From Chrysophaeum taylorii (lineage: Eukaryota > Sar > Pelagophyceae > Pelagomonadales > Pelagomonadaceae), in contig JAQMWT010000057.1 of NCBI GenBank assembly GCA_029834535.1, positions 1 to 64,000 of the forward strand: 64,000 bases of DNA, written 5' to 3'. Below the pieces are notes generated by a model, which saw only the letters and a list, made by a program, of their open reading frames with translations, was not told where the DNA came from and did not search any database. A program made the position numbers and the translations under genes. This document shows positions 2,922-38,774 of the stretch, one piece after another. Position 1 is the first letter of the stretch, and every line of letters begins with the position of its first letter.

Positions 2922-3241
2922 TGGCGGCACAGAAAAACCACTCCCGGCCCCCGGGTGACAAAGGGGGTACTCACCGACTCGCCCTAGACCTCACTGGACG
3001 AGGAAAACACGGACTCGGGGTCGGATATGCTCGCCACACACCTTGCTCACGCTCACCAAGCCTCTCAACAAGATGGAGAGATGGTATATGATAGCAAGAA
3101 TGCTACAAGAATACTGCAAGAATGCTTCTCACAAGGGAGAGGTATGATGTCACTAGGAAAGTAGGGAAAGGCGTCCCGTTGAACGGGTATCAAGCCTCGA
3201 GAAGGGAGGGTAAGCCTTAGCGGTCAGGAGTTGCCGCCACA
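2922..3241 (-). repeat. LTR of the truncated Ty3/gypsy copy
   Basis: On the plus strand this begins TGGCGGCA and ends TTGCCGCCACA, giving TG...CA ends with a short inverted repeat. The last bases and the following GGACTCCC match the equivalent junction of the complete element's LTR at 8717/8718, and both share a TCCTCGTCCAGTGA-like internal stretch. Most of the rest differs, so it belongs to a related but distinct subfamily. The left boundary is uncertain by a few bases because the partner LTR is missing. Confidence 0.65.
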
Positions 3242-5633
3242 GGACTCCCTGGTGAGAATACGAGCTGCCCTCAGCGAGTCCGGCGATAATCTCGAGCCTT
3301 GGCTGAATGAGCATCTCGGGAACGAATCTTCTTGTAGACACGTTCAACGACAGGTTCGGGAACGCGTCCACTACGCAAAGTGAACTTGGAATCAACACAT
3401 CGATCTCATGCGGGGCGAAGTCGGTGACACAAGGAGTGGTACTGTTGTTGACCTTGGTCTTGTCGGTGAAACTGCGACCGTCCACGTCCTTGTATTCCGG
3501 CTTAAGCTTGCGAGTAGAGAGATGTGAGGTAGGCTTGTAATAAGAAACCTTGTCATGGGGACCGAGATCAGCATAAAAATGCAGAGCGACTCGATCATTC
3601 ACAAAATCATAGGGTTCATAAACTTCAGCGACGTAAATCTTCTTTCGCCAATCGGACCGTTTGTTATCTGGAATCCGAAAGACAACGAACTTACCGTGCT
3701 TGTAATCATCCCGGAAGGTCTCCTTGGGCTTGGGCACAGCTCGATCGACCACTGGAGAAACCATCACAGGGGTGATCTGACTGACATGAACACAACGGCG
3801 TTCAGGAGGAGAATCAAGAGACTCAATCCTGTAAGTGACCGGAGACAAGCGTTCCAAAATAACGAATGGACCGCGCCATTCCGGTCGAAGCTTGTTCTGA
3901 AGAAAAGGGATGTAGAGCAGAACATGTGAACCTTCTTCATACTCCACATCAACATGGTCCGCATTATAAGCGAGACGTTGTTTACGAAGAGCCTTCTCGC
4001 GAGCTTCGTTCACCGTAGCGGTATAGAATTTCAACCTCTCGCGAGTCTCTGCCACAACATCGGAGCGAGTTTTCGGCAGGCGGCGGACATCAAGATCCAT
4101 GATCGTATAATCGGTTGGCAATAGAGGCTGCCGGTTGAGACGAAGCATGAAAGGTGAGATCTGAGTTCCCGGAATAAACTTACGATTGTAGCAAAAAGCA
4201 ATGTACTCCGCGAATTCGGGCCAGTCCGTGATCTTGCGGTTTTGAAGACACGCACGGAGGAAAGCCTTGATAAAGCGGTTGACCCTTTCCGCAGGATTAG
4301 CCTGAGCATGATGCGGAATCGTGGTACTATACCGAACATTGAAGAGATGACAAAACTCTTCCATCAATTTGTTGACGAACTCTTTCCCATTGTCGGTACG
4401 AATCCTCTGAGGTAGATAACCTTTGAGTAATATATTCGCGACAAAAGACTCGAGGATTGACTCAGCAGTCTTATGGTGTAGTACGTCAAGAATCAAGAAA
4501 TGAGAAAATGGATCAAAAAAGATGATCAGATATGTCTCGGGACCAGCACTGGGCAAAGGTCCGAACAAATCCACACAAAGGACGGCGCAATCACCATCAT
4601 ACACAGGTTGCTGAAGAAGACCTGCTCTCTTTGGTTCAGGCGTGCGAGCTTTCTTGCACACTATGCAACCAGCAATATAAGCACCCACCTCATTAGACAT
4701 GTGGGGCCACCAAAAACGTTCAAACATCGACTGCACCGTACTTTGACGACCCATGTGACCACCATCAAGAGGTGTGTCGTGGTACAATCGGATGATGCGC
4801 GTCCGTAAAGTTCGGGGTGCGACTATCATCGGGTGCAAGTCAGGTGCGGCACGGTAGAGAACTCCTTTCACCACTTGATAGCGATAATTGGCTCCGTACC
4901 GACGAAGAGAATGGCCCTGAGCCATGCGATAGCGAATGTCCTCGCAAGTAGCATCAGTGATCTGCTCTTTGGCTATCTCTTCCAAAGTCAAATTATCCGG
5001 GATCTTGTCGATGTACTCTTGGTAATCATCGGCTTCACGGAAAATACTAGGCTGGGTCTGCAAACGTTGCTTCTGACGTTGTCTCGTAGCATGAGACGTC
5101 ACCAATTGCATCGGATCGTCGAGACCCTCTTCTTCTTCCTCCACAGGTAACTCAGTCGTAACAAACGACAGAATGACATGGCACCCAGGTAAAGGTACTC
5201 CTTCATCATCGACAGGGCGAGGAAGTTCTTGGCACACTAGATACGCGTGGTTCAAGGGTTCACCAAACTCATCCGTCTCGATGACATGATCTATAGGATT
5301 GCGAGAGAGACAGTCAGGGATACTCATTCCCGGCGACTTTCCTGGTTTGTAACCCAATTCAGGATCGAAATTGGCGAGCCGCATCGCCCATCGAGACAAC
5401 TGCCCAGACGAGTGCTTCGCCTTTCGTAAAAGCGTCAAGTTGCGATGATCCGTTTCAAGGATCGTCTTGTGACCTTCGATATAAGAGCGGAAATGCTCAA
5501 GAAAAAGAATAACTGCCAGTAGCTCTTGCCGGCAAGGCTCATAGTTCCGCATCTCTTTCGGCACAGCTCGGCTCCAATACTCAACCACTCGTTCCTCCCG
5601 TGCCACCTTGCCGGTTTCGTCCTTGACTGCCAC
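3153..5633 (-). CDS. Ty3/gypsy Pol fragment: RNase H and integrase
   Basis: An 826-residue open frame; the RNase H coding actually begins a little upstream, with a SDASKEGLGAYLF core in the same frame. RNase H is recognised from YWSRAVPKEMRNYEP and LETDHRNLTLL. Integrase follows: an HHCC zinc finger (YHDTPLDGGHMG with two His, then CIVCKKA) and a DDE core with Asp in VDLFGP, Asp in RTDNGKEF and Glu in NPAERVNRF. A GPF-type module (RPEWRGPFVI, then VTYRI) comes next. A further 90-residue C-terminal extension (WRKKIYVAEVYEPYDF onward) is shared with the other copy. The frame reads past the normal end into the LTR, stopping at 3153. With no RT or Gag it cannot be autonomous. Confidence 0.9.
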   Translation of the reverse strand: MAVKDETGKVAREERVVEYWSRAVPKEMRNYEPCRQELLAVILFLEHFRSYIEGHKTILETDHRNLTLLRKAKHSSGQLSRWAMRLANFDPELGYKPGKSPGMSIPDCLSRNPIDHVIETDEFGEPLNHAYLVCQELPRPVDDEGVPLPGCHVILSFVTTELPVEEEEEGLDDPMQLVTSHATRQRQKQRLQTQPSIFREADDYQEYIDKIPDNLTLEEIAKEQITDATCEDIRYRMAQGHSLRRYGANYRYQVVKGVLYRAAPDLHPMIVAPRTLRTRIIRLYHDTPLDGGHMGRQSTVQSMFERFWWPHMSNEVGAYIAGCIVCKKARTPEPKRAGLLQQPVYDGDCAVLCVDLFGPLPSAGPETYLIIFFDPFSHFLILDVLHHKTAESILESFVANILLKGYLPQRIRTDNGKEFVNKLMEEFCHLFNVRYSTTIPHHAQANPAERVNRFIKAFLRACLQNRKITDWPEFAEYIAFCYNRKFIPGTQISPFMLRLNRQPLLPTDYTIMDLDVRRLPKTRSDVVAETRERLKFYTATVNEAREKALRKQRLAYNADHVDVEYEEGSHVLLYIPFLQNKLRPEWRGPFVILERLSPVTYRIESLDSPPERRCVHVSQITPVMVSPVVDRAVPKPKETFRDDYKHGKFVVFRIPDNKRSDWRKKIYVAEVYEPYDFVNDRVALHFYADLGPHDKVSYYKPTSHLSTRKLKPEYKDVDGRSFTDKTKVNNSTTPCVTDFAPHEIDVLIPSSLCVVDAFPNLSLNVSTRRFVPEMLIQPRLEIIAGLAEGSSYSHQGVLWRQLLTAKAYPPFSRLDTRSTGRLSLLS

Positions 5634-5687
5634 GAGCTGAAAAAGATACGCGCCCAGACCTTCCTTGGAAGCATCCGAGCGGATCTG

Positions 5688-6554: not shown

Positions 6555-6656
6555 ACTTGTGAACTTGTTGAGGAATTTGTCTTGGGAATGTATGGGTGTG
6601 GCCTATGTAGATAGGCTAGAGGACTGATAAACAAAAGATGGCACATAGGAAAGACA

Positions 6657-6800
6657 AGTGCAGGCCAGTAAGTTCACCTAGTCCCAATCTCTAACCCCAG
6701 CAAGTTCACCTGTTCCCGTTAAGTTCGCCTAGTCCCAATCTCTAACCCCAGCAAATTCGGCGTAAAACCAATCTCTAACCCCAGTAAGTTCGGCGTAAAC
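6657..6800 (+). repeat. AAGTTCACC-type interspersed array (partial copy)
   Basis: Begins CAAGTGCAGGCCAGTAAG, the same end seen at about 58977 and 62612. It then repeats AGTAAGTTCACCTAGTCCC and CAATCTCTAACCCC units with variation. This copy is truncated and runs into the next, oppositely oriented copy near 6890. Confidence 0.8.
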
Positions 6801-6889
6801 CCACACCCACTCACCACACTCTCCTTCGAGCTCGTCGCTCTCACCCCCGCCAATCTAAGCTGCTTTGATCCACACGCCGCTAAGCTTCG

Positions 6890-6995
6890 AGTCTTAACTA
6901 CTAATCGACAGATGTTTGTTTGTCTGTCTGTCTGTTTGTCTGTCTGTCTTTAAATGTCGACTGCTAAGTTTCTCTGTCTGTCCTTCGATTTAGCG
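6890..6995 (-). repeat. GACA/AACA microsatellite containing a very short non-LTR 3' end
   Basis: Read on the minus strand: CTAAATCGAAGGACAGACAGAG, then a stub ending GTCGACATTTAAA, then GACA/AACA repeats and CTGTCGATTAG. Microsatellite lies on both sides of the stub, which identifies the microsatellite as the insertion target. Confidence 0.75.
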
Positions 6996-7039
6996 TAAGG
7001 ATCAGGTAGGCGCGAGAGTAAGGATCAGGTAGGCGCGAG

Positions 7040-7640
7040 AGCCAGACAGTGATCCTCCAAGCCGTCTACGGCGACCTCGCAGACTATTTCCACGACCCGC
7101 GGCGGCTCTTTCAGCGCGCCATTCTCACGCCCCGTCGAAACGATGTTGTCGATGCTGACAACGCGCGCATGACCGCGGCCTTTTTTCCCCGGAGACGAGG
7201 CGTCGGAGTTCTTTTCGGCTGACTAGGCTGGGTCGGAAGACGACGCCTCGCTCTTTACAGTCGAGTTTTCAACTCCCTGACAACCAACGGCATGGTGACT
7301 TTGGTCGCGAGCTTAATGTCTTCGCAACCTCGACCCGTCGCACGGCCACTGCAACGGTACCAGATACATGATCTATCGTGTCGTTGTCACCGAGGCTCCT
7401 CCAACCTGTATCGCTTAAGGCCCGCCTACGCCAAACGATCAACAAGAGCCAGGGCCAGACGCCCCGCGAGGTCGGCGTCCTCTTTTCCAAGCCCGTCTTC
7501 TGCCACGTCCAGCTCTACGTGGCTCTCTGTCGATCGGCATCTCCGAGGATATACTCATCTGGGTCGACGACTCCACCCTACCCCACACGTGCTGCGCAAT
7601 ACCGATAAGCCCCCTCCCGGCGTCTACACGCGCACTATAG
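7040..7640 (+). pseudogene. PIF1-type helicase C-terminal fragment (composite copy A)
   Basis: Plus-strand frames give ILQAVYGDLADYFHDP and RAILTPRRNDVVDADNA, matching the RAIL-TP-N-V-IN segment of PIF1/Helitron helicases. Then come FNSLTTNGM, RNLDPSHGHCNGTRYMI (the LDP...CNGTR motif) and, in another frame, TINKSQGQTPREVGV with VFCHVQLYVALCRS (helicase motifs V and VI). Several frame breaks and stops make it non-coding. PIF1 helicases unwind DNA; in Helitrons this domain is fused to Rep, but no Rep sequence is present here. Confidence 0.75.
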
Positions 7641-7966
7641 GTGAACTTACTGGGGCCACGTGAACTTACTGGGGTTTGAGATTGGGACTAGGTGAACTGA
7701 GTGACCAGGTTAAACTGGGACCAGGTGAACATACTGGGATTTTTAGAGTAAAGGGTTTTTAGAGTAAACTCAAAGGTTGGCGGCGCGTGCGGATCAAAGC
7801 AGCTTAGATTGGCGGAGGCGAGAGCGACGAGCTCAAAGGAGTTGGTGTGAGCTAGGTGAACTTACTGACCAGGTGAACTTATATGAAAGTTACTGGGACC
7901 AGGTGAACTTACTGGGGTTAGAGATTGGGACTAGGTGAACTTACTGGCCTGCACTTGTTTACTCTA
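7640..7966 (-). repeat. AAGTTCACC-type array of composite copy A
   Basis: Many copies of GTGAACTTACTGG and GGACCAGGTGAAC (reverse complement of the forward unit), with a unique 90-bp spacer at about 7750-7845 that recurs in every composite copy. Ends at GGCCTGCACTTG (about 7966), the same terminus as the other copies. Confidence 0.8.
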
Positions 7967-8095
7967 AAAGCCCCAGTAAGTTCACACTTGGTCTCAGTAA
8001 GTTCACCTGGTCACTAAGTTCACCTAGTCCCAATCTCCAACCCCAGTAAGTTCACCTGGTTCCAGTAAGTTCACCAGGTCTTAGTAAGTTAACCT
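7967..8095 (+). repeat. AAGTTCACC-type array of composite copy B
   Basis: A shortened forward array meeting copy A head to head. Units AGTAAGTTCACCTGG and CCCAGTAAGTTCACC are visible. It leads into the conserved GCGCGTGTAGACGCC segment and then the PIF1 fragment. Confidence 0.75.
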
Positions 8096-8378
8096 ATAGT
8101 GCGCGTGTAGACGCCGGGAGGGGTCTTATTGGTATTGTGCAGCACGTGATCCCAAATGTAGGTTTCTCGGACAATTATTAGGGTGGAGTCGTCGACCCAG
8201 AAGAGGATATCCTCGGGGTTGCCGATCGACAGAGAGCCACGTAGAGCTGGACGTGACAGAAGACGGGCTTGTGGGCAAGAGGACGCCGACCTCGCGGGGC
8301 GTCTGGCCCTGGCTCTTGTTGATCGTTTGGCGTAGGCGGGCCTTAAGGGATACAGGTTGGAGGAGCCTCGGCGACAAC
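8096..8378 (-). pseudogene. PIF1-type helicase fragment, 3' part, interrupted by the gypsy element
   Basis: The minus strand encodes the NKSQGQTPREVGV and VTSSSTWLSVDR-type frames of the same PIF1 C-terminal region. It stops at ACAAC (8374-8378), where the retrotransposon begins. The sequence resumes at 18869 after the second ACAAC, so the two pieces were contiguous before insertion. Confidence 0.75.
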
Positions 8379-8717
8379 TGTGGCGTAAGGAGAATTATAG
8401 GGGCTACCTGGCGTGCCTTCGAATCCTGGCTCGCCGATCGCGTCCGTGCCCTTGGTGGGATCACTGGACGAGGATGGCCGTTCTCCCGTCACGCGACCAC
8501 AAACAACTCCCGTGCCTGGTCCTCTAAACTTGAGGACCGGTTGTTGCTTTATGATCAAGGATATATCGAAAATCGGGAAATCAGGGTGACGCATGTCACG
8601 GAAACGGGAGATGATGTCATAGAGAACACTGACATCATCAGAACGGAGTAGGGTGCCCCTGATAAGGGAGGGCCCTAGAAGAGGGGTAAGCCTGAGGAGG
8701 CGGGAGTTGCCGCCACA
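8379..8717 (-). repeat. 3' LTR of the methyltransferase-bearing element
   Basis: 339 bp, TGTGGCG...CGCCACA, homologous along its length to 18532-18868. The minus strand contains the 3' end of the element, preceded by the integrase stop at 8758. Confidence 0.93.
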
Positions 8718-8730
8718 GGACTCCCCTGGT
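8718..8730 (-). promoter_or_regulatory. Candidate polypurine tract
   Basis: Read on the minus strand, ACCAGGGGAGTCC directly precedes the 3' LTR. It is short and only partly purine. The same GGACTCCC lies next to the LTR of the truncated copy (3242 on), so it is conserved at the place where plus-strand priming is expected. Confidence 0.5.
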
Positions 8731-8757
8731 AAGAATTCGAGCTGCCCCAGCGAGGTG

Positions 8758-11175
8758 CTAGCGCGAGGAGCGCGGCTTCGCCTTACGAGCATCTCGTGAA
8801 CGAATCTTCTGGTAAACGCGGGTGATGATCGGTTCAGGAACTCGACCACTGCGTAAAGTAAACTTGGGTATCAACACATCAATCTCGTGTGGAGCGAAAT
8901 CCGTGACACAAGGAGTTGTGTTGGAGGAAATTCGGGACTTGTCGGTGAAACTTCGACCTTCAACGTCCTTGAACTCGGGCTTGAGCTTGCGGTGCGAAAG
9001 GTGAGAGGTCGGCTTGAAATAAGCGACATCATCGTTCGGACCCAAATCGGAATAGAAATGTAGAGCAACACGATCATTTTGGTAATCGTAAGGCTCGTAA
9101 ACTTCGGCAACATAAATCTTCTTGCGCCAATCAGAGCGCTTCCGGTCAGGAATCCGGAAAACAACAAACTTACCGTGCTGATAATCATCACGGAAGGTTT
9201 CTTCGGGTTTGCGGATGGTTTGATCAACGATCGGAGGTACCATCACCGGCGTGATCTGACTGACATGAACACGTCGTGTTTCGGGCGGAGAGTCGAGAGA
9301 CTCAATCCTATAGGTGACCGGGGAAAGGCGTTCCTTGATAATAAACGGCCCTCGCCATTCCGGTCGAAGTTTGTTCTGAAGGAAAGGAATGTAGAGCAAA
9401 ACGTGCGATCCTTCCTTGTATTCAACATCAACATGATCAGCATTGTAAGCCAATCGTTGTTTCTTCAAAGCTTTATCACGAGCCTCGCGGACGATCTTCG
9501 TATAATATTTCAATCGTTCACGAGTTTCGGCGACTGCATCAGAGCGAGTCTTCGGCAATAATCGTGTATCAAAATCCATGAGCGTGTAGTCAGTCGGTAG
9601 CATCGGCTGACGGTTCAGGCGCAGCATAAAGGGAGAAATCTGCGTGCCTGGAATAAACTTGCGGTTGTAGCAAAACGCAATATAATGAGCAAAGTCAGGC
9701 CAATCCGTGATGTTCCGGCCTTGAAGGCAAGCACGGAGGAAGGCCTTGATAAATCGGTTGACACGCTCAGCCGGGTTCGACTGGGCATGATAAGGAATCG
9801 TAGTTTGGTATCGTGTGTTGAAGAGATGGCAAAACTCGCGCATCAACTTGTTCACGAACTCTTTACCGTTGTCGGTACGAATCATCTGGGGCAAGTAGCC
9901 CTTGAGGAGGATGTTAATGACAAAAGACTCGAGGACAGACTCAGCAGTCTTATCGTTCAAAACATCCAGAATCAAGAAATGCGAGAACGGATCAAAAAAT
10001 ACTAGAAGATACGTCTCGGGACCAGCGCTGGGCAAGGGTCCAAATAAATCCATGCACAGAACAGCACCATCACCATCGTAGACGGGCTGCTGCAAGAGTC
10101 CAGCTCGTTTCGGCTCAGGCGTACGAGCTTTCTGGCAAACTAAGCATTCAGCAATGAAGACTCCAACTTCGTTCGACATGTGAGGCCACCAAAATCGTTC
10201 TTGGATAGCCTGGACGGTACTGTGACGTCCCATATGACCACCGTTAACCGGAGTGTCATGGTAGAGTCGAATAATGCGCTTGCGCAACGTAGCAGGTGCA
10301 ACAATCATCGGGTGCAAATCAGCAGAAATGCGGTAAAGAACGTCTTTAACGACTTCGAATCGTTCGTTCGCTCGGGAACGTCGCGGCGTCTGACCTTGGG
10401 CCATTCGGTAGCGAATATCCTCGCAAGTAGCATCAGATTCTTGCTCACGTGCGATCTCAGCGAGCGTCATATTATCGGGTATCTTATCGATATAATCTTT
10501 GTAAGCGGCTGCGTCCTTGAAGATCTGTGGCTCATCGCGCGCACGGTTCTTCCGACGTTGTCTCGTAGCGTGAGACGTAGCCAATTTCATCGGATCCTTT
10601 TCAGGGTCTTCGTCTTCGTCTTCCGGCAGTTCGGTCGTAATAAACGACATTATGAAGTGGCAGCCGGAGACGGGAGCTCCTCGGTCATAAACAGGTCGGG
10701 GAAGCCCTTGGAACACTAAATACGCGTGGTTCAAAGGTTCTCCAAACTCGTCAGTCTCGATGACATGATCTATCGGGTTGCGGGAGAGACAGTCAGGGAT
10801 ACTCATTCCCGGTGACTTTCCCGGCTTGTAACCAAGTTCAGGGTCAAAATTGGCGAGGCGCATCGCCCAACGAGCAAGCTGCCCAGACGAGTGCGTCGCC
10901 TTACGTAAAAACGTCAAATTTCGGTGATCGGTCTCCAAAACAGTACGGTGCCCTTCGATGTAGGCTCGAAAGTGCTCTAGAGAAAGTATAACTGCCAGCA
11001 GCTCTAGCCGACGGGGCTCATAATTCCGCATCTCCTTCGGCACAGCTCGGCTCCAGTATTCAATTACTCGTTCTTCTCGAGTCACTCTTCCGGTATCGTC
11101 CTTGACTTCGACAGTCTGGAAGAGATATGCTCCAAGTCCATCCTTGGAAGCATCTGATCGGATCTGAAAAGGCAG
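8758..11175 (-). CDS. Gypsy Pol, RNase H and integrase part
   Basis: Open frame ending at the stop at 8758. RNase H: SDASKDGLGAYLF, YWSRAVPKEM, ELLAVILSLEHF, LETDHRNLTFL. Integrase: HHCC finger (LYHDTPVNGGHMG, then CLVCQKA) and DDE residues in CMDLFGPLP, IRTDNGKEF and NPAERVNRF, all retained. A GPF module (RPEWRGPFII) follows. A distinctive extension with WRKKIYVAEVYEPYDYQNDRV and HLSHRKLKPEFKDVEG is conserved with the truncated copy and may be a chromatin- or protein-binding targeting module (inference). It joins the RT frame through a frame change at about 11180. Confidence 0.92.
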   Translation of the reverse strand: MPFQIRSDASKDGLGAYLFQTVEVKDDTGRVTREERVIEYWSRAVPKEMRNYEPRRLELLAVILSLEHFRAYIEGHRTVLETDHRNLTFLRKATHSSGQLARWAMRLANFDPELGYKPGKSPGMSIPDCLSRNPIDHVIETDEFGEPLNHAYLVFQGLPRPVYDRGAPVSGCHFIMSFITTELPEDEDEDPEKDPMKLATSHATRQRRKNRARDEPQIFKDAAAYKDYIDKIPDNMTLAEIAREQESDATCEDIRYRMAQGQTPRRSRANERFEVVKDVLYRISADLHPMIVAPATLRKRIIRLYHDTPVNGGHMGRHSTVQAIQERFWWPHMSNEVGVFIAECLVCQKARTPEPKRAGLLQQPVYDGDGAVLCMDLFGPLPSAGPETYLLVFFDPFSHFLILDVLNDKTAESVLESFVINILLKGYLPQMIRTDNGKEFVNKLMREFCHLFNTRYQTTIPYHAQSNPAERVNRFIKAFLRACLQGRNITDWPDFAHYIAFCYNRKFIPGTQISPFMLRLNRQPMLPTDYTLMDFDTRLLPKTRSDAVAETRERLKYYTKIVREARDKALKKQRLAYNADHVDVEYKEGSHVLLYIPFLQNKLRPEWRGPFIIKERLSPVTYRIESLDSPPETRRVHVSQITPVMVPPIVDQTIRKPEETFRDDYQHGKFVVFRIPDRKRSDWRKKIYVAEVYEPYDYQNDRVALHFYSDLGPNDDVAYFKPTSHLSHRKLKPEFKDVEGRSFTDKSRISSNTTPCVTDFAPHEIDVLIPKFTLRSGRVPEPIITRVYQKIRSRDARKAKPRSSR

Positions 11176-12479
11176 ATCATAATCAAAGCTTCAATAATCG
11201 TATCCCAAGCTTTCTGACACTCGGGCGTCCACTCGAACTTTACACCTTCGAGGCATAATCGTCTCAACGGTTCCACAATCTTCGAGTAGCCCTTCACATA
11301 TCGCCGGCAGTAATTACTCATGCCGATGAAAGAGTGTATCTGGGTCTTCGGGGAAGTATTCGGTAAAGTACCTGGAATCGGCATCTTCTGCAGTGCTTCC
11401 AGCGTCTTCGGATTCGGCTTCAAGCCTTCTGGGGTTGAAATGTGTCCCAGAAATTCTATATCATCCTTGAGAAGGTGGAACTTTGCGGTTCGACCGCTGT
11501 ACCCTATCTGTGCCAAATGACACATCACTTCGATCAAAACTTGTAAATGTCGATGAAGATCGTCGGATCCCATCATAATATCGTCAACAAACGCAACCAA
11601 GTCTTGATACATCCATTTCGAAAGGTCGCTCGCCATTTGCTTGCAGAAAAGAGCTCCGGCCGTCTTCACCCCTAGAGGTAATCGCAAGAAACTGTGAGCG
11701 CCAAGTGGGCTAACCATCGTGACAGCGTCCTGCGCTGCCGGATCCAGACGAAGGTTGTGGTATCCCCATCTAATATCAATGCATGTCCGCCATCGTCTCA
11801 TCGCGAGAAAGGCTAAAGCATAATCTTGTCGAATGTTTGGCCAACTGTCATTGACCAATTGATCGTTGAGCTGACGTAAGTCAACTGCAGCACGGAACGC
11901 GTTTGACGTTCCAATCTCAGCTCCTTTCTTCGGAAGCATCAACACAGGAAAGCCCCAAGGTGAGTTGGCCGGACGAATGACTCCATCCCGGCACCACTCG
12001 CTGATCTGCTTGCGGAGACAATCGAGTTTCGCAGGCGTCAATCGGTAGGGCGTCATCTTAATCGGTCGCGGATTCGCGTCTTTGAATCGTAGAGACACAG
12101 GAGGCGAGTCCACAGGTCTCATAATCGGGTCGAAAAAGGCCCAAGAATATTGCACACAGTGACGGAGCATCAGTTTCGCCTCGTCATCTAAGTGCGGATT
12201 GTCAGGAATTCCCAGCTCCTGCACAACCTTGTCAACTTCTTCCTTCGTAGGAATTTTAACTTTCATTGCTTCGTTGTCCTTGACATGCTCCGGAGTCTGC
12301 GGTAGCGGTGCACCCTCAGCATCGCGCGGCGCATCTTTCCATGGCACATCGAACTTTTTCTCGTATTTTCGTTTCACTTCCGGGTGGCTTTTGTTGATCC
12401 TCTCGCCTTTGACACGAACGCTCGGCTCGCTCTTAATCTTCGGTTCCCGATCTCGCTCAGGATCTGGCGGAACGTCCAA
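11082..12479 (-). CDS. Gypsy Pol, reverse transcriptase part
   Basis: The RT domain is recognised from FKDANPRPIKMTPYRLTPAK, GVIRPANSPWGFPVLMLPKK, the first catalytic Asp in CIDIRWGYHN, LPLGVKTAGALFCKQM, and FVDD in VAFVDDIMMGS carrying the two other catalytic Asp. FLGHISTPEGLKPNPKTLEALQKMPI is the connection to RNase H. The aspartates required for polymerase activity are present. The frame departs from the RNase H frame at about 11180; a single missing T in ATTATG would explain it. The upstream frame change near 12490 lies beside a run of eight G (plus strand). Confidence 0.93.
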   Translation of the reverse strand: MDVPPDPERDREPKIKSEPSVRVKGERINKSHPEVKRKYEKKFDVPWKDAPRDAEGAPLPQTPEHVKDNEAMKVKIPTKEEVDKVVQELGIPDNPHLDDEAKLMLRHCVQYSWAFFDPIMRPVDSPPVSLRFKDANPRPIKMTPYRLTPAKLDCLRKQISEWCRDGVIRPANSPWGFPVLMLPKKGAEIGTSNAFRAAVDLRQLNDQLVNDSWPNIRQDYALAFLAMRRWRTCIDIRWGYHNLRLDPAAQDAVTMVSPLGAHSFLRLPLGVKTAGALFCKQMASDLSKWMYQDLVAFVDDIMMGSDDLHRHLQVLIEVMCHLAQIGYSGRTAKFHLLKDDIEFLGHISTPEGLKPNPKTLEALQKMPIPGTLPNTSPKTQIHSFIGMSNYCRRYVKGYSKIVEPLRRLCLEGVKFEWTPECQKAWDTIIEALIMICLFRSDQMLPRMDLEHISSRLSKSRTIPEE

Positions 12480-12853
12480 ATTTGGTTGTCGGGGGGGGCA
12501 GCAGAAGAAGCATGAGACGTCCCCGGCTCATCTGTTGCAGGCGGAATCAACGGTACCTCTGGAGGTTCCCATTTGGTGCGATCTTGGAGATCATCAGTCG
12601 ACACCCATCTTACGACACGTGTGCGCGTGTTTAACAGCGGAACTTGTACGTGACGAAGGGTGGTTTCATCAATTTGCAAATAATAATCAAACGGTCGGTC
12701 TGCAGGACTCAACGCTGACGGCAAAGCTTCGCCGCTCAGGTGAAATTCCTTGGTCACAGAGTTGTGCAGATCGAGCACTAATAAGTCATCGTGTCTGGTG
12801 GCACGACGGACGCTAAGTGTTTCAACGAGGTCGTCCTGGAGAAGCCTGCCCAA
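12374..12853 (-). CDS. Pol linker between methyltransferase and reverse transcriptase
   Basis: A third frame covers the stretch between the methyltransferase end and the RT. It includes LVLDLHNSVTKEFHLSGEALPS and DRPFDYYLQIDETTLRHVQVPLLNTRTRVVRWVS. The useful part is probably about 12780-12490; the remainder overlaps neighbouring frames. I recognise no domain. It may be part of the gypsy-specific region upstream of RT. Confidence 0.5.
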   Translation of the reverse strand: MGRLLQDDLVETLSVRRATRHDDLLVLDLHNSVTKEFHLSGEALPSALSPADRPFDYYLQIDETTLRHVQVPLLNTRTRVVRWVSTDDLQDRTKWEPPEVPLIPPATDEPGTSHASSAAPPDNQIWTFRQILSEIGNRRLRASRAFVSKARGSTKATRK

Positions 12854-14631
12854 TCAAAATCGAGGGGCATCGTCAGCAACTCCGAAGTCATTTTCAGATT
12901 CAGAGATCTGTAATCGGAACGGTGCGGTCCTACGCGAAGCGGGACACGCGTAACGGTGTAAGCTGCGTCTGTCGCGGCTCGTGATGATCCTAAATTGTTC
13001 ATCTGAAGTAAATGTCGTTCGTCGGCGTAGCCAAGTGCTGCGGCGAACTCTTGCTGCATATTCTTGCAAGTCTTTGGAACTGCGCGCAAATGGAGCGGAT
13101 GGCTGGAAACCAACAATCGCACGCGACAGCTCATCAAACTGGGCGTTATGTCGTAAAAATTGACGACGTACACGTAAGGGTGCAAACGTGCAACGTAAGA
13201 AATAATCGAAGCCTCCTGCTCTATCAACCACATGAAGAAACCAGCCATCTTGCATAATTTCATCGTCCAGTGGGTAGCGGTGACTCCTTTCCCAACATCT
13301 CTGGAGGTCAAGTTGCACAGAGCGGAGTGTACGCAGGGTGGCGACGCGACACACATCGACGACGACCATTCCGCGTAGGGTAAATAAGATTCGATCAACC
13401 GTAAGGTTGTAACATAGCGACCACACAGTGTGTGCTGCACCACAGGAATATTCGGAAAGTTCTTGTGGTGGATCTGGTTGGCGGTGTCCGAAGCATCGAG
13501 TGCTAGCACGACTCGAAACGACGTCCCACACGTTTCGTTGGCTCGTTGGAGACCTAAAGTACTGCCTCCGGCTCCACTGAACAGCATCACCACCTTGCGA
13601 TAAGTGATTGGAAGCCATTGAACCTTTTCATATCGGCGGCGGATCTCCGCTTCGGTGATCTCGCGGCATTTCTTTTCATCTTCTTCCGACCTTCGAGCGA
13701 AATCGTCGCTGCCTTCAGGTCGTTTGAGGGTGGACTTGTCCGCCATAGCGGTCGTAGCGTCCTTCTGCACCGTGCTCAGCAGCATCGGCGGGGGAGATTC
13801 GTCGCATCGCGTCAAGTGACTAGCGACAGAAACGGTGAAAGAAAGGTTCCCCTTGTCGTATCCTTCTTCACATTCTTTCGTAAGTTCGTTGATCGTAGAG
13901 ACGTTCAACTCATCTTCGTACCTAACGATATCGCCAATCGCAAGGACTTCGCCTTGAGTGACGACCGTCGGCACTTCTTCCGTGGCAGTAACCGCCACCC
14001 GAGCAGCGGACCGGTCGCGCTCTTCGCAAGAAGAACACATTCCTTCGACAACTCCCAGCTGCTCGTTCTCAGCAAACGTAGCGACGAAAACCTGTCCCTT
14101 TTCCATAGGTTTCGACAAAATAACCGGCAGATTGTAAGTTCGACCGGGCTCGATTTGAAGCGTGCGCGCAGCATAAGCTACTACTTCTCGCGCGTCTTCT
14201 CCCGGAGCTGGGGAGAATTTGGTCGTAGCATGTCCCCGCGTAGCCAAGGCTACCGTACGTTCCGGCGGCGGGCTTCGGAGATCTTTAATCGTGCTCAAAC
14301 GAGCGTAAACTCGAGTCTTGACCAGGTCGAGACTCTGCCGAAAGGCATCGTGTTGATGATTGTAAATCGGTACGGTTATCGGATTTCGATCGTAAATAGA
14401 TCGAAAGGTCACGATTGGTGCATCGACTCGTTCATCCTTAACTTTAATCTTTTTGCGCCCGTAGACGACTTGGGTTCGACAAAAACAGATCCGATCATGG
14501 GGGAATGCACGATGGCTCCTAAAACTCGTATATCGCGCCCTCCCAACAGGAACAGATAATTCGTATCGGCTACAATAGCGACAATGGGGGCAGCGAAGTC
14601 GTCGGCGAAAGCGACCCGAAGGGCGATCCAA
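12778..14631 (-). CDS. C5-cytosine DNA methyltransferase within gypsy Pol, with upstream linker
   Basis: A continuous 617-codon frame. Its first part overlaps protease-region sequence, and the coherent reading starts near 14470. About residues 30-340 are a linker (GRTYNLPVILSKPMEKGQVFVATF, a glutamate-rich coil near EDEKKCREITEAEIRRRYEKV). About 345-617 are a DNA methyltransferase: motif I VVMLFSGAGGSTLGL (AdoMet binding, about 13555-13600); motif II VVLALDASDTANQIHHKNFP; motif IV MCVASPPCVHSA with the catalytic Cys of PPC (about 13333-13341); a probable motif VI IEQEAS; motif VIII MSCRVRLLV; a short target-recognition segment; motif IX-like MTSELLTMPLDFDW; and a possible motif X VVPPDT. This enzyme class adds methyl to cytosine C5 in DNA. 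Lying between protease and RT, it would be made as part of Pol. Motif VI differs from canonical ENV, but its Glu is kept. Confidence 0.88.
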   Translation of the reverse strand: MDRPSGRFRRRLRCPHCRYCSRYELSVPVGRARYTSFRSHRAFPHDRICFCRTQVVYGRKKIKVKDERVDAPIVTFRSIYDRNPITVPIYNHQHDAFRQSLDLVKTRVYARLSTIKDLRSPPPERTVALATRGHATTKFSPAPGEDAREVVAYAARTLQIEPGRTYNLPVILSKPMEKGQVFVATFAENEQLGVVEGMCSSCEERDRSAARVAVTATEEVPTVVTQGEVLAIGDIVRYEDELNVSTINELTKECEEGYDKGNLSFTVSVASHLTRCDESPPPMLLSTVQKDATTAMADKSTLKRPEGSDDFARRSEEDEKKCREITEAEIRRRYEKVQWLPITYRKVVMLFSGAGGSTLGLQRANETCGTSFRVVLALDASDTANQIHHKNFPNIPVVQHTLCGRYVTTLRLIESYLPYAEWSSSMCVASPPCVHSALCNLTSRDVGKGVTATHWTMKLCKMAGFFMWLIEQEASIISYVARLHPYVYVVNFYDITPSLMSCRVRLLVSSHPLHLRAVPKTCKNMQQEFAAALGYADERHLLQMNNLGSSRAATDAAYTVTRVPLRVGPHRSDYRSLNLKMTSELLTMPLDFDWAGFSRTTSLKHLASVVPPDTMTY

Positions 14632-15133
14632 CGATGGATCGTCGTCGTATTCAACCCTGATCCGTACAGCTTGCGCTTAATCGGAAGTTCGCCTTCATCG
14701 AAAATCAACTGATCTTTGGTCAACTTTTGACCATTTCTCGGCAAATATAAGAAACATCTGCCATTCCATCGACACCGATGGTCGTCGAGAATTTCGGTCC
14801 GTCACGATTCCTGTAGATGTGACAGGCTATAAACGTTAGAGTACCCGTATCTAAACAACTGAGGGTAATCAAATCATCTTCGATCGTCTTGCCGTCTCGC
14901 GGCGTCAACGAAGTGTGAGCACATCGGGCTCTGACTCGCTCATCTCCGGGGTTGGGCATCGATACCGCGGCTTGAGCTTTCGTATTATCTGTTGTTGGCG
15001 TCTTCGCCATAACGCTCGCGGCAGCCTCTTTATCTGGCGGCTTCCGCTCTTCCTCCAAGACAATCTCCGAGGGAATAAACGCTGGTAGGGGATCCTGGTC
15101 TTCGTAATCCTTGGAAGCAAACAACCCTCCCAT
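14409..15133 (-). CDS. Retropepsin-like region of Pol, split by a frame change
   Basis: Frame 15133-14720 ends with STTIGVDGMADVSYI, which sits where a retropepsin has its D-T/S-G-A active site followed by a hydrophobic residue. The next frame (14744-14409) gives LPRNGQKLT, then PIVAIVADTNYLFLLGGRDIRVLGAIVHS, resembling the second half of a retropepsin (hydrophobic LLG-D segment). The frame change at about 14747 lies in a T run. The expected DSGA/DTGA is replaced by DGMA, so activity is doubtful unless the element uses a variant site. Confidence 0.55.
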
Positions 15134-15867
15134 AAATCATTCATTTCGTCGTTCCAGAATGCATCTGTGAATTCATTCGTCGCCTGCTGATCCTCATCAG
15201 CATCGGCGATCGGTTCCGTGTCAGCTGCGGCTTTGAGTCTGCAGCTGCGCGGTTGTTCTGGTGGCTTCTTTAGCAAGAAATTCCGAGCTTTCGTCCACCA
15301 ATCCTGCAGGTTCCACGTCGGCTCGTCTTCGTCCCACTTGAGAACGCTGCTAATCTTCTTCATAAATCTATCCTTTTCTTCCGGCGGCGTATCCGTGACT
15401 CGATCCGTAGTAACCGAAACCGTTTCGGGGGGGTCCGCAGGAAAAGATGGCGTCGTCCCCGACGTCAACTCTATCGTAAAATCGTCGTCTGCATTACTCG
15501 CGCTGGTCATCGTCTCGTCAGTCGAATGCGCGCACGAGCTATCACTGCAGAAATCCATGTCTGGCTCACAGCCAGTTCGGTCGCCAGCGGTCGTCTCCGG
15601 AGGGTCCAAAGATAAGCCGATGGCATCGAGGGCTTCCTCATCAAAAATAAACGGTGGGTCGTCCGTGGACGACTCGTCAAATAACGTTATCGCGGACACT
15701 GGTTCACAAAGTGTAGCTTCTTCATCTTCCGAATCTGAATCGCCTTCCCAGTATCGTGGAGCTTCAAGTTCCTCGCTCGAATCTTCGAGCTCATCGCTCG
15801 ACATCTGCTCATAAATCTGTGCCAAGGACCGACGATTGGTCAGCACGTCGTTGGGTGGCTCGTCCAT
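14905..15867 (-). CDS. Acidic N-terminal region of Pol or extra ORF
   Basis: Starts at an ATG at 15867, 81 bases after the Gag stop and in the same frame as Gag. The coherent part runs to about 15120. It is very acidic and Ser/Thr-rich (SSDELEDSSEELEAPRYW, DFTIELTSGTT) with a short WNLQDWWTKARNFLL segment. Reading then moves to another frame at a GGG run near 15120 (WEG / GLFASKDYEDQDP). I recognise no domain. Lying between Gag and protease, it may be a spacer or the start of Pol reached by reinitiation or readthrough. Confidence 0.6.
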   Translation of the reverse strand: MDEPPNDVLTNRRSLAQIYEQMSSDELEDSSEELEAPRYWEGDSDSEDEEATLCEPVSAITLFDESSTDDPPFIFDEEALDAIGLSLDPPETTAGDRTGCEPDMDFCSDSSCAHSTDETMTSASNADDDFTIELTSGTTPSFPADPPETVSVTTDRVTDTPPEEKDRFMKKISSVLKWDEDEPTWNLQDWWTKARNFLLKKPPEQPRSCRLKAAADTEPIADADEDQQATNEFTDAFWNDEMNDLWEGCLLPRITKTRIPYQRLFPRRLSWRKSGSRQIKRLPRALWRRRQQQIIRKLKPRYRCPTPEMSESEPDVLTLR

Positions 15868-15948
15868 CGGTGGGCGAGCAAGATCTTCGAATGCGGCCGC
15901 GGCAAGGGCGTCGGCTGCGTAATCAGCGACAACGTAGACGTAAACGTC

Positions 15949-18066
15949 TTATACGTCGGTGCGGGTGTCCGTGTTCGGGTACACCGTCACTCCTAATGGT
16001 AACTGTTGACCGCAAGGGGTCGTAAATGCGAACGTTGTAGACGACTGTCCCGAGTCTTCTCGGTAACGACCATCGTCCGAATCGCGATCGCGAGATCTTC
16101 GTCGCCGGCGGCGGCGTGAATGTCTGCTAGAGCTCCTGCTATCTTTCCGTCGGCGCTGGCACGAGCTGCTACGGCTCTTGTCGTGGCGTCGGGGGCTCCG
16201 GCTATCTCGACGGCCCGTTCGTGTCGAAGACGATCGGCCGTGTCCATCTGTTAAGTGCTGCACGGTATCCATAACCGTGGTTAGCTGCGTGCCCATATCA
16301 TTGAGTCTGCTCTGAATATCGTGAGCAGCGCTCGAACCGAGGGTGGCATTAGAACTGCCGTCGTCACGCGAGTGATTATCTTTCCTTTGTCGGCTCTCCC
16401 ATCGTCCTCGCGAAATGGGCTTTCTGCCGTCTTTGATGTATTTGCACATCGCTACATAATAGTCGTCGGGCTCGCGGTTGCAAATGACGCGGTTCCCGTG
16501 TTCATCCTTGTCGTGGGTCGCTAAGAAAAGCCCACAGTCCTTGCACGTCCTCTCGAACCACTTTTTCGGATTCTCTTCGAGGCGTAAGGCTTCATATTTC
16601 GTCGTTTTATCTTTCGTTCCCGAGACGAGAGCTCGTCCTCCGCGTCCAGGCGGCGGCTTCTGCGGCTTCCCGCTCGAGGGGTTCATCGAGTTTCGGCTGT
16701 TCTTCTCCGCCATGGCTGTTGCGAAGTCGTTTTCGAGCCGCGTAATCAGCGACAACGTAGACGTAAACGTCTTATACGTCGTCGGGTGTCCGCTGCGCAT
16801 CGTTCGCACGCGGGATTTCAATTCGCTGGACTCCAGTCCACGTATCAAGTAAGAGATGATCTCCACGTCGTTGAGATCTCGGTTGGCCACGGAACAGTAT
16901 GCCATGGCTTCTTGCTGAAATTTAATGCAATACGTATGCACGTGACGTTCTCCAGAGCGTTTCGGAACGGTCGCTTGGGTCGTGCATTGTAACTTTCGTA
17001 ATGATTCCTCTGCCGTCACCGGCAGCGGACAACTCTCTCGGAAATATTTCAAAATCTTGAGGCAATACTTCTCGTTCAATCGTCGTATCCGTCGTACCAC
17101 GGAACCGTACTCCTCATCGTCGATATCCCGACGTAAATAGAAAGACGCTGGGTGATCGAGGTCTTTACACAGGTCTTCATACTTCTTTAAGTGTTCTCGA
17201 AAAATCGGTGCGACTGTGTCGCGCAGGGTCGCGGGAAGCAGATATCGGAGTTTCTCCAAGCTGAAATGGTCTTCGGCTAACGTACTCATCACCGCGCCCG
17301 CATCTAAATCGAACTGGTCCTGATCGCGTCCATCGAGAACCAGTTTAAAAGTTTCGGTTTTTAATCCAGAGGTTGATCGCCGCTCCTTGTTGCGATCGTG
17401 TTTAGCTAACGCGCTCGCGAGTCGATCCGTAAAACCCAGCAAGAACTCTTTGGTGTCGATCCTTCCGGCGCCACGCGTCTCCTCCTTTTCTTCTTCATCA
17501 TCGTTTTCATTGCGCGGCTTCCTAGCTTTCGCGCGTGATCGTGTAGTCGGCGGCTCTTCCTCAGCTCGGGACTCCGGGCTGCTCGCTCGCCTTGATCGAC
17601 TCGGCGTACGCAACTCGTCTCTTTCACGGGTCAACGAGCTTACTTGCTCTTGGAAGGCGCCTGCTCGAGCTTTGGCCCGACGCAGTTGCTCTATTATGTC
17701 TTCTTTCTCCTTCCGTTGTAGCCGTTCTTTTCGTTCGTCGTCTTCCCCTAATTGTTTTAAAAGTTGTTCTTGCACGCGTTCGTTCTCTACGCGTAATTCC
17801 TGCAAGAGAGCCTCATAGAACTCTTTCATTATCGTTGGGTCCAGGGGTACTGCACGCGTTGACGGAGCTGTCGATCGTCCTCCCGTCGGTCTCTCCGTGG
17901 GCTTGCCGTCGTTGTAGTCTAGCTCTTCTTCCTCGTCAACTTCTGTATCGTGCTCTTCTTCCTCGTCATCATTATCATCATCGTCATTCCGCTCGTCCGT
18001 CTCATCCTGACGGCTTGGCGGTTCTTCATATCGTAGCTGCTCGACGGCAGCATCATCGTCTTCCAT
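15949..18066 (-). CDS. Gag polyprotein of the gypsy element
   Basis: A 705-residue frame with an ATG at 18066 and no breaks. The N-terminus is extremely acidic (DDDDNDDEEEEHD region), followed by a long Glu/Arg coiled coil (about residues 75-160). A capsid-like helical domain lies at about 200-470 (ETFKLVLDGRDQDQFDLDAG, YCIKFQQEAMAYCSVANRDLNDVEIISYLIRGLES). Next comes a Cys-containing segment (CKDCGLFLATHDKDEHGNRVIC) that could be a small zinc site rather than a CCHC knuckle. The C-terminus is Arg/Ser-rich (SRHSRRRRRRRSRDRD), suited to RNA binding. Gag packages element RNA in the cytoplasm; the SR-like tail is unusual. Confidence 0.85.
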   Translation of the reverse strand: MEDDDAAVEQLRYEEPPSRQDETDERNDDDDNDDEEEEHDTEVDEEEELDYNDGKPTERPTGGRSTAPSTRAVPLDPTIMKEFYEALLQELRVENERVQEQLLKQLGEDDERKERLQRKEKEDIIEQLRRAKARAGAFQEQVSSLTRERDELRTPSRSRRASSPESRAEEEPPTTRSRAKARKPRNENDDEEEKEETRGAGRIDTKEFLLGFTDRLASALAKHDRNKERRSTSGLKTETFKLVLDGRDQDQFDLDAGAVMSTLAEDHFSLEKLRYLLPATLRDTVAPIFREHLKKYEDLCKDLDHPASFYLRRDIDDEEYGSVVRRIRRLNEKYCLKILKYFRESCPLPVTAEESLRKLQCTTQATVPKRSGERHVHTYCIKFQQEAMAYCSVANRDLNDVEIISYLIRGLESSELKSRVRTMRSGHPTTYKTFTSTLSLITRLENDFATAMAEKNSRNSMNPSSGKPQKPPPGRGGRALVSGTKDKTTKYEALRLEENPKKWFERTCKDCGLFLATHDKDEHGNRVICNREPDDYYVAMCKYIKDGRKPISRGRWESRQRKDNHSRDDGSSNATLGSSAAHDIQSRLNDMGTQLTTVMDTVQHLTDGHGRSSSTRTGRRDSRSPRRHDKSRSSSCQRRRKDSRSSSRHSRRRRRRRSRDRDSDDGRYREDSGQSSTTFAFTTPCGQQLPLGVTVYPNTDTRTDV

Positions 18067-18512
18067 ATCGGCTCTGGCTCGTTCTAGTCGGCCGAGATCA
18101 AAGCGGGTCCAAAATGGTTGAGTCGTCGTCGTTCTCGTGCTCCTTCGGCTCTGGAACTTCTAATCGTCCACGACACGCGTAATATCGTCGTTGCGTGCGT
18201 CTTCCACCGACAAATCTATCCGTACGGTGGGCGGCAGAACTCGTCTCTGCCCGGCAAACAATGCCTTATCCGTGAGTTGCGATCTCACTCCGCTCGCCTG
18301 TGGCAGCGGTACCCGGGTTGCGCGTCGGTTAGCACCAAATCGCGCGTCGTCACTTCCGACGACTAACGTATCCGGCCGGGGAACTTTCCCACGGCAATGG
18401 TCCTTCTGGAATTCCTTGTCGGCGCGCTTGATCAGGGCGCGCACGGCTTGTCCGGACCGTGTAGAGAATGCAAGATGCACTAGTTCGCTGCGACCGATAT
18501 AGTCGCTCGAAT

Positions 18513-18529
18513 CTCGTATTCCTCCACCA
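18513..18529 (-). promoter_or_regulatory. Candidate primer-binding site
   Basis: Read on the minus strand, two bases after the 5' LTR, the sequence is TGGTGGAGGAATACGAG. The leading TGG is complementary to a tRNA CCA end. I could not assign the tRNA with confidence. Confidence 0.5.
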
Positions 18530-18531
18530 CC

Positions 18532-18868
18532 TGTGGCGTAAGGAGAATTTTAGGGGCTACCTGGCGTGCCTTCGAATCCTGGCTCGCCGATCGCGTCCGT
18601 GCCCTTGGTGGGATCACTGGACGAGGATGGCCGTTCTCCCGCCACGCGACCACAAACAACTCCCGTGCCTGGTCCTCTAAACTTGAGGACCGGCTGTTGC
18701 TTTATGATCAAGGATATATCGAAAATCGGAAATCAGGGTGACGCATGTCACGGAAAAGGGAGATGATGTCATAGAGAACACTGACATCATCAGAACGGAG
18801 TAGGGTGCCCCTGATAAGGGGGGCCCTAGAAGAGGGGTAAACCTTAGGAGGCGGGAGTTGCCGCCACA
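18532..18868 (-). repeat. 5' LTR of the methyltransferase-bearing element
   Basis: 337 bp, TG...CA, partner of 8379-8717. It should hold the element's promoter on the minus strand; I did not pick out a convincing TATA box. Confidence 0.93.
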
Positions 18869-19254
18869 ACAACGACACGATCAATGATGTATCTGGTACC
18901 GTTGCAGTGGCCGTGCGACGGGTCGAGGTTGCGAAGACTTTAAGCTCGCGATCAAAGTCAGCATCCCGTTGGTTGTCAGGGAGTTGAAAACTCGACTGTA
19001 AAGAGCGAGGCGTCGGCTTCCGACCCAACCTAGTCGGCCGAAAAGAACTCCGACGCCTCGTCTCGGGAAAAAAAGGCCGCGGTCACGCGCGCGTTGTCAG
19101 CATCGACAACATCGTTTCGACGGGGCGTGAGAATGGCGCGCTGAAAGAGCCGCCGCGGGTCGTGGAAATAGTCTGAGAGGTCGCCGTAGACGGCTTGGAG
19201 GATCAATGCCTGGCTCGCGGGCCTACCTGATCCTTACCCTAAATCGAGGGACAA
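18869..19254 (-). pseudogene. PIF1-type helicase fragment, 5' part (composite copy B continued)
   Basis: Begins with ACAAC, the duplicated target, and continues the PIF1 frames (minus strand: CNGTRYMI region, then FNSLTTNG and RAILTPRRNDVVDA). Ends at CTAAATCGAGGGACA, where the non-LTR fragment starts. Confidence 0.75.
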
Positions 19255-38560: not shown

Positions 38561-38774
38561 CCGGCGAAACTAGAACCGATACGCTGCCCTCTGGGCGACG
38601 CACTGCGGCGACGAAAGCTCCGCTCCAACGCAAATTTGGCAGGGTTTCAGGATTGCAACGGGAAAGGATTAGGGTTAAAGTTAGTGCGGCCCACAACAGT
38701 TTTGTACTGTAAAAAAACGAAGGAAAGATGGTTGGATCAGACGGAGGTGAAAGAAGTCAGAGATTCTTCCCGGC

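Follow-up and report, generated by a model that had tools for sequence, protein, structure and literature searches.

A gypsy-type retrotransposon family with a predicted C5-cytosine methyltransferase domain in Pol, and a different domain of this class in a copia-type family of the same genome

A complete long terminal repeat (LTR) retrotransposon of the Ty3/gypsy type is located in the 64,000-nucleotide stretch of DNA that was analyzed here (positions 1 to 64,000 of contig JAQMWT010000057.1, assembly GCA_029834535.1; in the following called the window), and this element, to judge from its motifs, carries a C5-cytosine methyltransferase (DCM) domain of its own between a protease-like region and the reverse transcriptase (RT). 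With modest confidence, we favor the view that the Pol protein of this element family, termed family A, includes an active C5-methyltransferase that marks the element's own complementary DNA (cDNA) and is selectively kept. Cytosine methylation often silences retrotransposons, and elements with an enzyme of their own reverse this usual picture. Published cases with C5 enzymes are few, namely a gypsy element of a charophyte as well as long interspersed elements (LINE) and DIRS elements of a dinoflagellate. The capture of a DCM by retrotransposons is therewith already known, and what is new here is the host lineage, the orphan nature of the enzyme, and the presence of such domains in two LTR superfamilies in one genome.

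The whole LTR insertion extends from 8379 to 18868 on the minus strand (10,490 bp), as it is bounded by direct repeats that both start with TG and finish with CA in the sense of the element and as ACAAC is found on either flank (coordinates of all features are given in Table 1). The two LTRs are 97.4% identical over the BLAST match. The initial annotation of this DNA, which had been made from the sequence alone, had already described a complete LTR element with an RT next to the DCM domain on the same strand, and both statements are borne out. RT, RNase H, and integrase follow each other with the integrase last, which corresponds to the order in Ty3/gypsy-type elements. The RT site FVDD was found in 31 of the 32 distinct family A copies that cover this site, with FVDG in the remaining copy, and the catalytic D, D, and E of the integrase were present in 9/9, 8/9, and 8/9 of the covering copies, respectively. 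The protease-like site, DGMAD at 14756-14770 in the window copy, differs from the canonical form D(T/S)GA(D/S): DGM replaces DTG in 29 of 32 distinct covering copies (one further copy has DGL and two are broken), and DGM is also kept in subfamily A2. The retropepsin-like region had no Pfam match, so that "protease" denotes a resemblance by eye, and there was also no Pfam match for the Gag-like open reading frame (ORF). As the ORFs change frame at several points, namely upstream of the protease-like region as well as inside it, directly past DCM motif X, in the linker between DCM and RT, and between RT and RNase H, the window copy is, by its sequence, not itself a working element. A stretch at 18510-18531 that by eye resembles a tRNA 3' end adjoins the 5' LTR and is a candidate primer-binding site, the spacing of which is not exact.

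The DCM domain is the end of an ORF at 12778-14676 on the minus strand that stops at 12778, and all motifs quoted in the initial annotation (LFSGAGG, VVLALDASD, ASPPC, IEQ, CRVRLLV, and a motif IX-like segment) are present in this ORF in that order. The motif names are those that we take to apply from general knowledge of the C5-methyltransferase class. PF00145, the family to which the initial annotation had pointed, was the sole Pfam-A family to match the 275-aa domain, with an expect value (E) of 3.7e-6 and a score of 27.0 bits above the cut-off of 22, and the match covered motifs I and II only. The same family matched in 9/9 aligned family A copies, and in the 3,005-aa frame of the copy L042 it reached 18.4 bits, which is under the cut-off. 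Among 33 distinct family A copies, chosen by best DCM match, ASPPC, IEQ, and RxR were each present in 33/33 and RVR in 32/33, so that the divergent motif VI, which had been noticed before in the window copy, is common to all of these copies. For profile comparisons, the 9-row alignment of family A was compared with a 14-row reference of C5-methyltransferases that consisted of phage and plasmid enzymes and the host DNMT2 (locus L001), with Mcat30 left out, and shuffled sequences served as control. The loci L065, L066, and L070 did not enter the analysis. For motifs I-IV in the N-terminal residues 1-91, the score was 69.6 with a probability of 97. The whole domain scored 69.8, which was reached by 0/200 full shuffles (maximum 21.1), and the C-terminal part alone scored 25.6 at motifs IX-X, which was also reached by 0/200 shuffles (maximum 21.1). 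With a relaxed setting, the hhalign alignment with the family took in residues 3-275 over 249 columns, and the default local alignment ended at residue 93. Based on these comparisons, the family A domain is a predicted C5-METHYLTRANSFERASE homologue, with strong homology in its N-terminal third and moderate homology at its C-terminal end. The middle, which we assigned by motif spacing and conservation, fits by eye.

A genome search with the family A domain gave matches of 81-100% identity among the best 140 of 980 first-look candidates, and 118 of these 140 top-scoring and therefore biased rows had no internal stop. A second search with the domain of subfamily A2 gave the best 141 of 981 candidates, and after merging of the two match lists, at least 178 distinct genomic places on many contigs were found to contain a family A DCM, a number that may include allelic duplicates, as there are matches at similar positions in contigs C10 and C297. 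In the reverse direction, a listed DCM was found upstream of the RT in 69 of 112 RT copies (the best 112 of 1255 candidates), with a spacing of 192-629 nt and a median of 536 nt; a look for other copies of the same order had been proposed in the initial annotation. For the other 43 RT copies no DCM was listed. We inspected six of them, and all six contain DCM sequence that is frame-broken, rearranged, or incomplete, which may explain their absence from the list. In some family A copies, a single open frame extends over about 3,000 aa. In L042, such a frame of 3,005 aa, cut off by the limits of the sequence used, contains DNA_methylase, RVT_1, RNase H, H2C2, and rve in this order, with 389 residues between the protease-like site and the start of the DCM domain. 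Eight of the 112 RT matches tie with the top score of the query and seven of the 141 A2-domain matches are 100% identical (the query counted in both cases), and from these groups of near-identical copies we infer that family A has been recently active. In the copy L047 (C477:1-10000), a stretch from RT to integrase is missing, and the protease-like region and the DCM lie within one 2393-aa frame; this copy is possibly a non-autonomous derivative. A 5'-truncated fragment of subfamily A2 elsewhere in the window, about 95% identical to the A2 copy L046 and about 76% to the main element, showed no DCM match and was the one DCM-less piece met.

Selection on the domain was assessed by the ratio of nonsynonymous to synonymous substitution rates (dN/dS) between the subfamilies, using four A1 copies and one A2 copy (L046). 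The ratio was 0.056-0.076 for the DCM. For the two best-aligned A1 copies, it was 0.03 for RT, 0.044-0.050 for the integrase, 0.083-0.093 for the C-terminal part, 0.12-0.13 for RNase H, 0.13-0.15 for the protease region plus spacer, and about 0.19 for the linker. We left out as yardsticks the parts from RT to the C-terminus of L045, which had a high dN and probably a frame-broken alignment, as well as the RT (0.051) and the C-terminal part (0.106) of L047, a copy without an RNase H or integrase row in this comparison. Within A1, the pooled ratio of nonsynonymous to synonymous polymorphism (pN/pS) of the DCM was 0.15, a value that is biased by the selection of loci by best DCM match. Judged by these ratios, the DCM clearly belongs to the constrained parts of the element, with a constraint like that of the integrase, and is under purifying selection. 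In view of the 178 places, the constant spacing to RT, the purifying selection, and the DCM in 6/6 unlisted RT copies, the DCM evidently belongs to the standard makeup of this large family, and the idea that a host or bacterial methyltransferase gene was inserted by chance in one copy, or that the assembly is in error, can be practically dismissed. The refuting case considered in the initial annotation, that other copies lack the domain and this one results from a chance insertion of a host gene, thus went the other way, and so did its other refuting case, the lack of a significant PF00145 match.

A search of the genome with PF00145 gave 57 matches and revealed a second element family. One match (L001) is the host DNMT2, whose best solved structure is 1g55 (E 3.9e-39), and another (L002) is a host DNMT5-like gene, named by its motifs. 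All six other matches that we inspected (L003-L008) come from an element of another kind, whose DCM differs from that of family A. This element, which we term family B, is found outside the window, on contigs C4, C120, C64, C326, C683, C564, and C96 (L003-L008, L053, and L054), and was absent from the initial annotation. The DCM of family B has the motifs AGG, FTLPCQHLS, and ENV, and each of the four scanned frames that contain it matched PF00145, with E between about 1e-9 and 6e-9. In several loci, a protease-like site, IDGGAS or similar, is located upstream of the DCM (DGGAS versus DGMAD in family A). On one strand of the copy on C96, a gag-like ORF is followed by the protease-like site, then by the DCM with motif I 229 residues past that site, by an integrase core with a weak match (E 0.0047), and finally by RVT_2 (9.8e-39). 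Direct repeats of about 200 bp that are 89% alike flank this copy. As the integrase precedes RVT_2 in this copy, family B is assigned by its domain order to the Ty1/copia-type LTR elements. A genome search for family B gave 135 pieces with 56-100% identity in the best 127 of 501 candidates. Of 21 pairs of its DCM, 19 were more divergent and had a dN/dS of 0.14-0.21, and the two close ones had 0.27-0.39. PC and EN were invariant in 7/7 rows. The family B profile touched M.HhaI over motifs IV-VIII (best E 0.009), a homologue search with the alignment gave none at E <= 0.01 (2049 candidates), and none was found in IMG/VR.

A profile comparison between the DCMs of the two families indicated no relation (probability 1%), which is a weak test, as both alignments are low in diversity. 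The simplest reading is that families A and B captured their putative methyltransferases independently, and a very old common descent of the two domains is conceivable. The family B domain is also C-terminal to the protease-like site, which suggests that both families gain the same kind of benefit in the particle or as cDNA. That two LTR superfamilies independently captured different C5-methyltransferases at matching sites, between the protease-like region and whichever enzyme comes next, is put forward tentatively, as a possibility to which we give clearly less than an even chance. If it were true, the parallel capture would mean that methylating new cDNA or element RNA pays at the particle stage in this host. 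One example would be a host surveillance directed at unmethylated DNA, in analogy to restriction-modification but in a eukaryote, that the mobile elements evade, and the family A enzyme would represent a new orphan lineage with the catalytic Glu in an EQE context. The common host and the cDNA-in-particle life cycle of both families offer a direct test of what a retroelement gains from such an enzyme.

The searches for relatives of the family A enzyme gave little. With region 300-632 of the 632-aa ORF, no homologue was found at E <= 0.001 (2756 candidates). The 9-row alignment likewise gave no homologue among 5229 candidates at E <= 0.01, and IMG/VR contained none. In a phage collection, the domain as a single sequence gave three sub-threshold records with E 0.3 each. 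These best phage matches resemble the family A domain in that motifs I, II, and IV are collinear, the alignment covering motifs I-IV, and they differ from it by an identity of just 27-29% over 89 residues. A search of solved structures up to E 10 (6 distinct sequences) contained no DNMT3 chain. The CFT segment is diagnostic of DNMT2, and this segment, CFTKSYG, is present in the host DNMT2 and absent from the family A domain. In a 19-row tree, which had no DNMT3 reference among its rows, 11 of 16 inner branches were unresolved, the branches of families A and B were separate and very long (3.51 and 2.91, respectively), and no close group was found for the family A domain. The family A enzyme thus appears to be an orphan, without a relative in the searches made.

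The initial annotation had referred to gypsy elements with a C5-methyltransferase in a charophyte and in a dinoflagellate. The charophyte case stands and is the published one closest to family A: KnitGypsy-Dnmt3 of Klebsormidium nitens is an LTR gypsy element with a C5-methyltransferase in the Pol ORF (de Mendoza et al., 2018, PMC5890265; this and the following statements refer to the passages of that paper on these elements). The dinoflagellate cases given there are LINE and DIRS elements, so that a dinoflagellate gypsy element is wrong as a precedent. KnitGypsy-Dnmt3 and family A share the C5-methyltransferase inside Pol and the multiple copies, those of KnitGypsy being intronless, and the KnitGypsy domain is also under purifying selection, with Ka/Ks below 0.2 as compared to about 0.06 between the subfamilies of family A. 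They probably differ in enzyme class, as the KnitGypsy enzyme is DNMT3-related, whereas the family A domain matched no DNMT3 chain up to E 10, and they differ in that the KnitGypsy repeats are arranged as in DIRS, whereas family A has plain LTRs with a 5-bp duplication. KnitGypsy comes from a charophyte, and family A probably from a stramenopile. SymbioDIRS-Dnmt3 and SymbioLINE-Dnmt of Symbiodinium likewise are captured C5-methyltransferases with large copy numbers, and SymbioDIRS-Dnmt3, which is in Pol together with RT, is stated to methylate CGs, with methylation of its own cDNA being proposed (PMC5890265). These elements belong to other classes, one being a tyrosine-recombinase DIRS and the other a LINE with the enzyme in ORF1, whereas family A is known from sequence alone. 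DIRS elements with Dam-like adenine methyltransferases are also retroelement-borne systems, but of another class and with an unrelated enzyme structure (cited in PMC5890265 and PMC6338049). In the literature searched, neither a DCM-bearing Ty1/copia element nor a C5-enzyme element in an ochrophyte was reported, apart from two partial mentions: a passage in PMC12344493 speaks of DNMT3 in "LTR Copia and DIRS" elements and cites for this the 2018 paper, which says Gypsy, and a passage in PMC6338049 names Stramenopiles for DAM and DCM elements taken together.

In the mechanism that we favor, the family A polyprotein would have the order Gag-like, protease-like, DCM, RT, RNase H, and integrase, and its DCM domain would be an active methyltransferase, as suggested by the conservation of motif I, the expected catalytic Cys, the motif VI Glu, and the motif VIII Arg pair. 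As the domain is inside Pol and upstream of RT, it would be carried in the particle together with RT, RNA, and cDNA. Before or at integration, it could then methylate cytosines in the freshly made double-stranded cDNA or in the donor element. The mark might let new copies pass as host DNA, or it might shield the cDNA from nucleases or deaminases. The position in Pol, the two captures, and the selection together favor an enzyme that acts on nucleic acid of the element itself, with the cDNA as the most likely substrate.

Several observations weigh against an active enzyme that methylates the DNA of the element. When only the C-terminal part was shuffled, the whole-domain score was kept (mean 69.6; 51/200 reached 69.8), so that this score comes entirely from motifs I-IV, and a home-made hidden Markov model gave motifs IX-X just E 0.02-0.13. 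Between these ends, the part that contains motifs VI and VIII scored 13.4 versus a shuffled mean of 13.3, with 42/100 shuffles reaching the score; motif VI has EQE instead of ENV, and CRVR in motif VIII is without the usual Q of QxRxR. The single-sequence structure model, with a pLDDT of 34, was uninformative on a class I methyltransferase fold, and the top solved-structure match was the RNA methyltransferase DNMT2, which was weak (E 0.1-0.2) and confined to motifs I-II. The dS between the subfamilies is near saturation (0.7-3.0), which makes the dN/dS ratios rough. There was also no depletion of CpG, as the observed/expected ratio was 1.33 in the window element versus 1.25 in the window at 20100-64000, and there was no CG-specific C-to-T excess in 28 A1 loci, which were among the best DCM matches and hence skewed to young and intact copies (polymorphic columns: CG 14.5%, CT 19.8%, CA 12.7%, CC 9.5%). 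As both signs are lacking, the family A sequences give no indication of strong CG methylation, which is compatible with a mark that is transient or placed in another context, with slow deamination, or with an enzyme that acts on RNA. The C/T polymorphism in the same 28 loci was mildly higher in the CT context (ACT 19/71), which could be noise. For family B, CpG was 0.98-1.14 in 8 stretches and TpG/CpA was 1.08-1.19, as compared to 1.25 and 0.93 in the window flank, which is a mild hint at CpG decay in that family.

An enzyme that acts on RNA would be in line with the lack of a CpG-decay footprint in family A. In this case, a DNMT2-like RNA methyltransferase would methylate the tRNA primer or the genomic RNA of the element inside the particle. 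The two best solved-structure matches are indeed DNMT2 and the tRNA C38 methyltransferase, and RNA methylation has been raised for SymbioLINE-Dnmt, for which the corresponding passage reports no de novo DNA methylation in yeast (PMC5890265). We nevertheless regard an RNA substrate as unlikely, since the weak DNMT2 matches are limited to motifs that are common to C5-methyltransferases, the CFTKSYG of the host DNMT2 is missing in the domain, and the alignment with phage DNA methyltransferases extends further, over motifs I-IV, albeit with E 0.3 in the whole collection. The divergence of motifs VI and VIII and the middle part that no profile recognizes would fit a DCM that has lost catalysis and that, within the polyprotein, has a structural role or binds DNA or RNA. 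This is about equally improbable, if not slightly more so, because the ASPPC, IEQ, and RxR elements are retained in every one of the 33 distinct copies, PC and EN are invariant in family B, and the constraint on the DCM is similar to that on the integrase.

A methyltransferase could also serve self-restraint, i.e., promote the silencing of the element's own copies and thereby lower transposition and host damage. A related option, a DNMT that slows retrotransposition, is discussed in a passage of PMC5890265, and the host DNMT5-like gene makes a maintenance system plausible. The near-identical copies among the RT and DCM matches, which point to recent activity, and the CpG content of family A, which shows no decay, both speak against self-restraint, and we consider it quite improbable. 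Methylation of the element's own cDNA by an active Pol-borne enzyme hence is the explanation with which we continue to work.

Table 1. Features of the window, with positions counted from its first letter; domain matches are Pfam families with E.
Feature	Position	Strand	Remarks
Fragment of subfamily A2 (family A), 5'-truncated	3103..5687	-	RNase H to 3' part
Target-site duplication, left copy	8374..8378	.	ACAAC
3' LTR	8379..8717	-	339 bp, TG..CA ends
RNase H and integrase ORF	8758..11190	-	
Integrase core (in ORF 8758..11190)	9787-10068	-	rve, E 3.2e-12
Integrase H2C2 (in ORF 8758..11190)	10120-10296	-	Integrase_H2C2, E 2.2e-18
RNase H (in ORF 8758..11190)	10846-11184	-	RT_RNaseH, E 4.1e-26
Reverse transcriptase ORF	11082..12527	-	RVT_1 at 11439-11933, E 1.6e-12; FVDD
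C5-cytosine methyltransferase (DCM) domain, predicted	12781..13605	-	275 aa; between protease-like region and RT
DCM motif X-like	12787..12828	-	SLKHLASVVPPDTM
DCM motif IX-like	12847..12906	-	SLNLKMTSELLTMPLDFDWA
DCM motif VIII-like	13108..13134	-	MSCRVRLLV
DCM motif VI-like	13213..13230	-	WLIEQE; canonical ENV replaced by EQE
DCM motif IV	13324..13353	-	CVASPPCVHS; expected catalytic Cys
DCM motif II	13453..13512	-	VVLALDASD..NFP
DCM motif I	13549..13593	-	VVMLFSGAGGSTLGL
Retropepsin-like region	14409..15136	-	VDGMADVSYI ... FLLGGRD; by eye; split over two frames
Gag-like ORF	15949..18159	-	736 aa; by position
5' LTR	18532..18868	-	337 bp
Target-site duplication, right copy	18869..18873	.	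ACAAC
DUF4116 plus GTPase, likely host gene	29731-32451		
DUF1810, likely host gene	32889-33533		
Kinesin, likely host gene	52620-55796		6.3e-98
Peptidase_M23, likely host gene	55826-56623		1.3e-12
MFS_5 transporter, likely host gene	57263-58915		1.5e-82
Peptidase_M50, likely host gene	60805-62106		match under its cut-off

The remainder of the window contains several likely host genes (Table 1) and further repeats. Another repeat family is present in several copies and in both orientations (6650-8370, 41480-42970, 58980-59970, and 62600-63540); it adjoins the retrotransposon and also partly matches 18869-19240. Three similar reading frames of 347-414 aa are found in a row at 38751-39995, 44787-45830, and 47669-48715, the middle one of which matches DUF6492 (E 4.7e-13), and by their similarity these frames represent a small local gene duplication. 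The host is probably a photosynthetic stramenopile, to judge from two contigs: contig C697 contains a red-type (form ID) rbcL, for which we take the closest Rubisco entries to be those of diatoms, and contig C696 is mitochondrial and gene-rich, with genes named by eye and a gene order that presumably is stramenopile-like.

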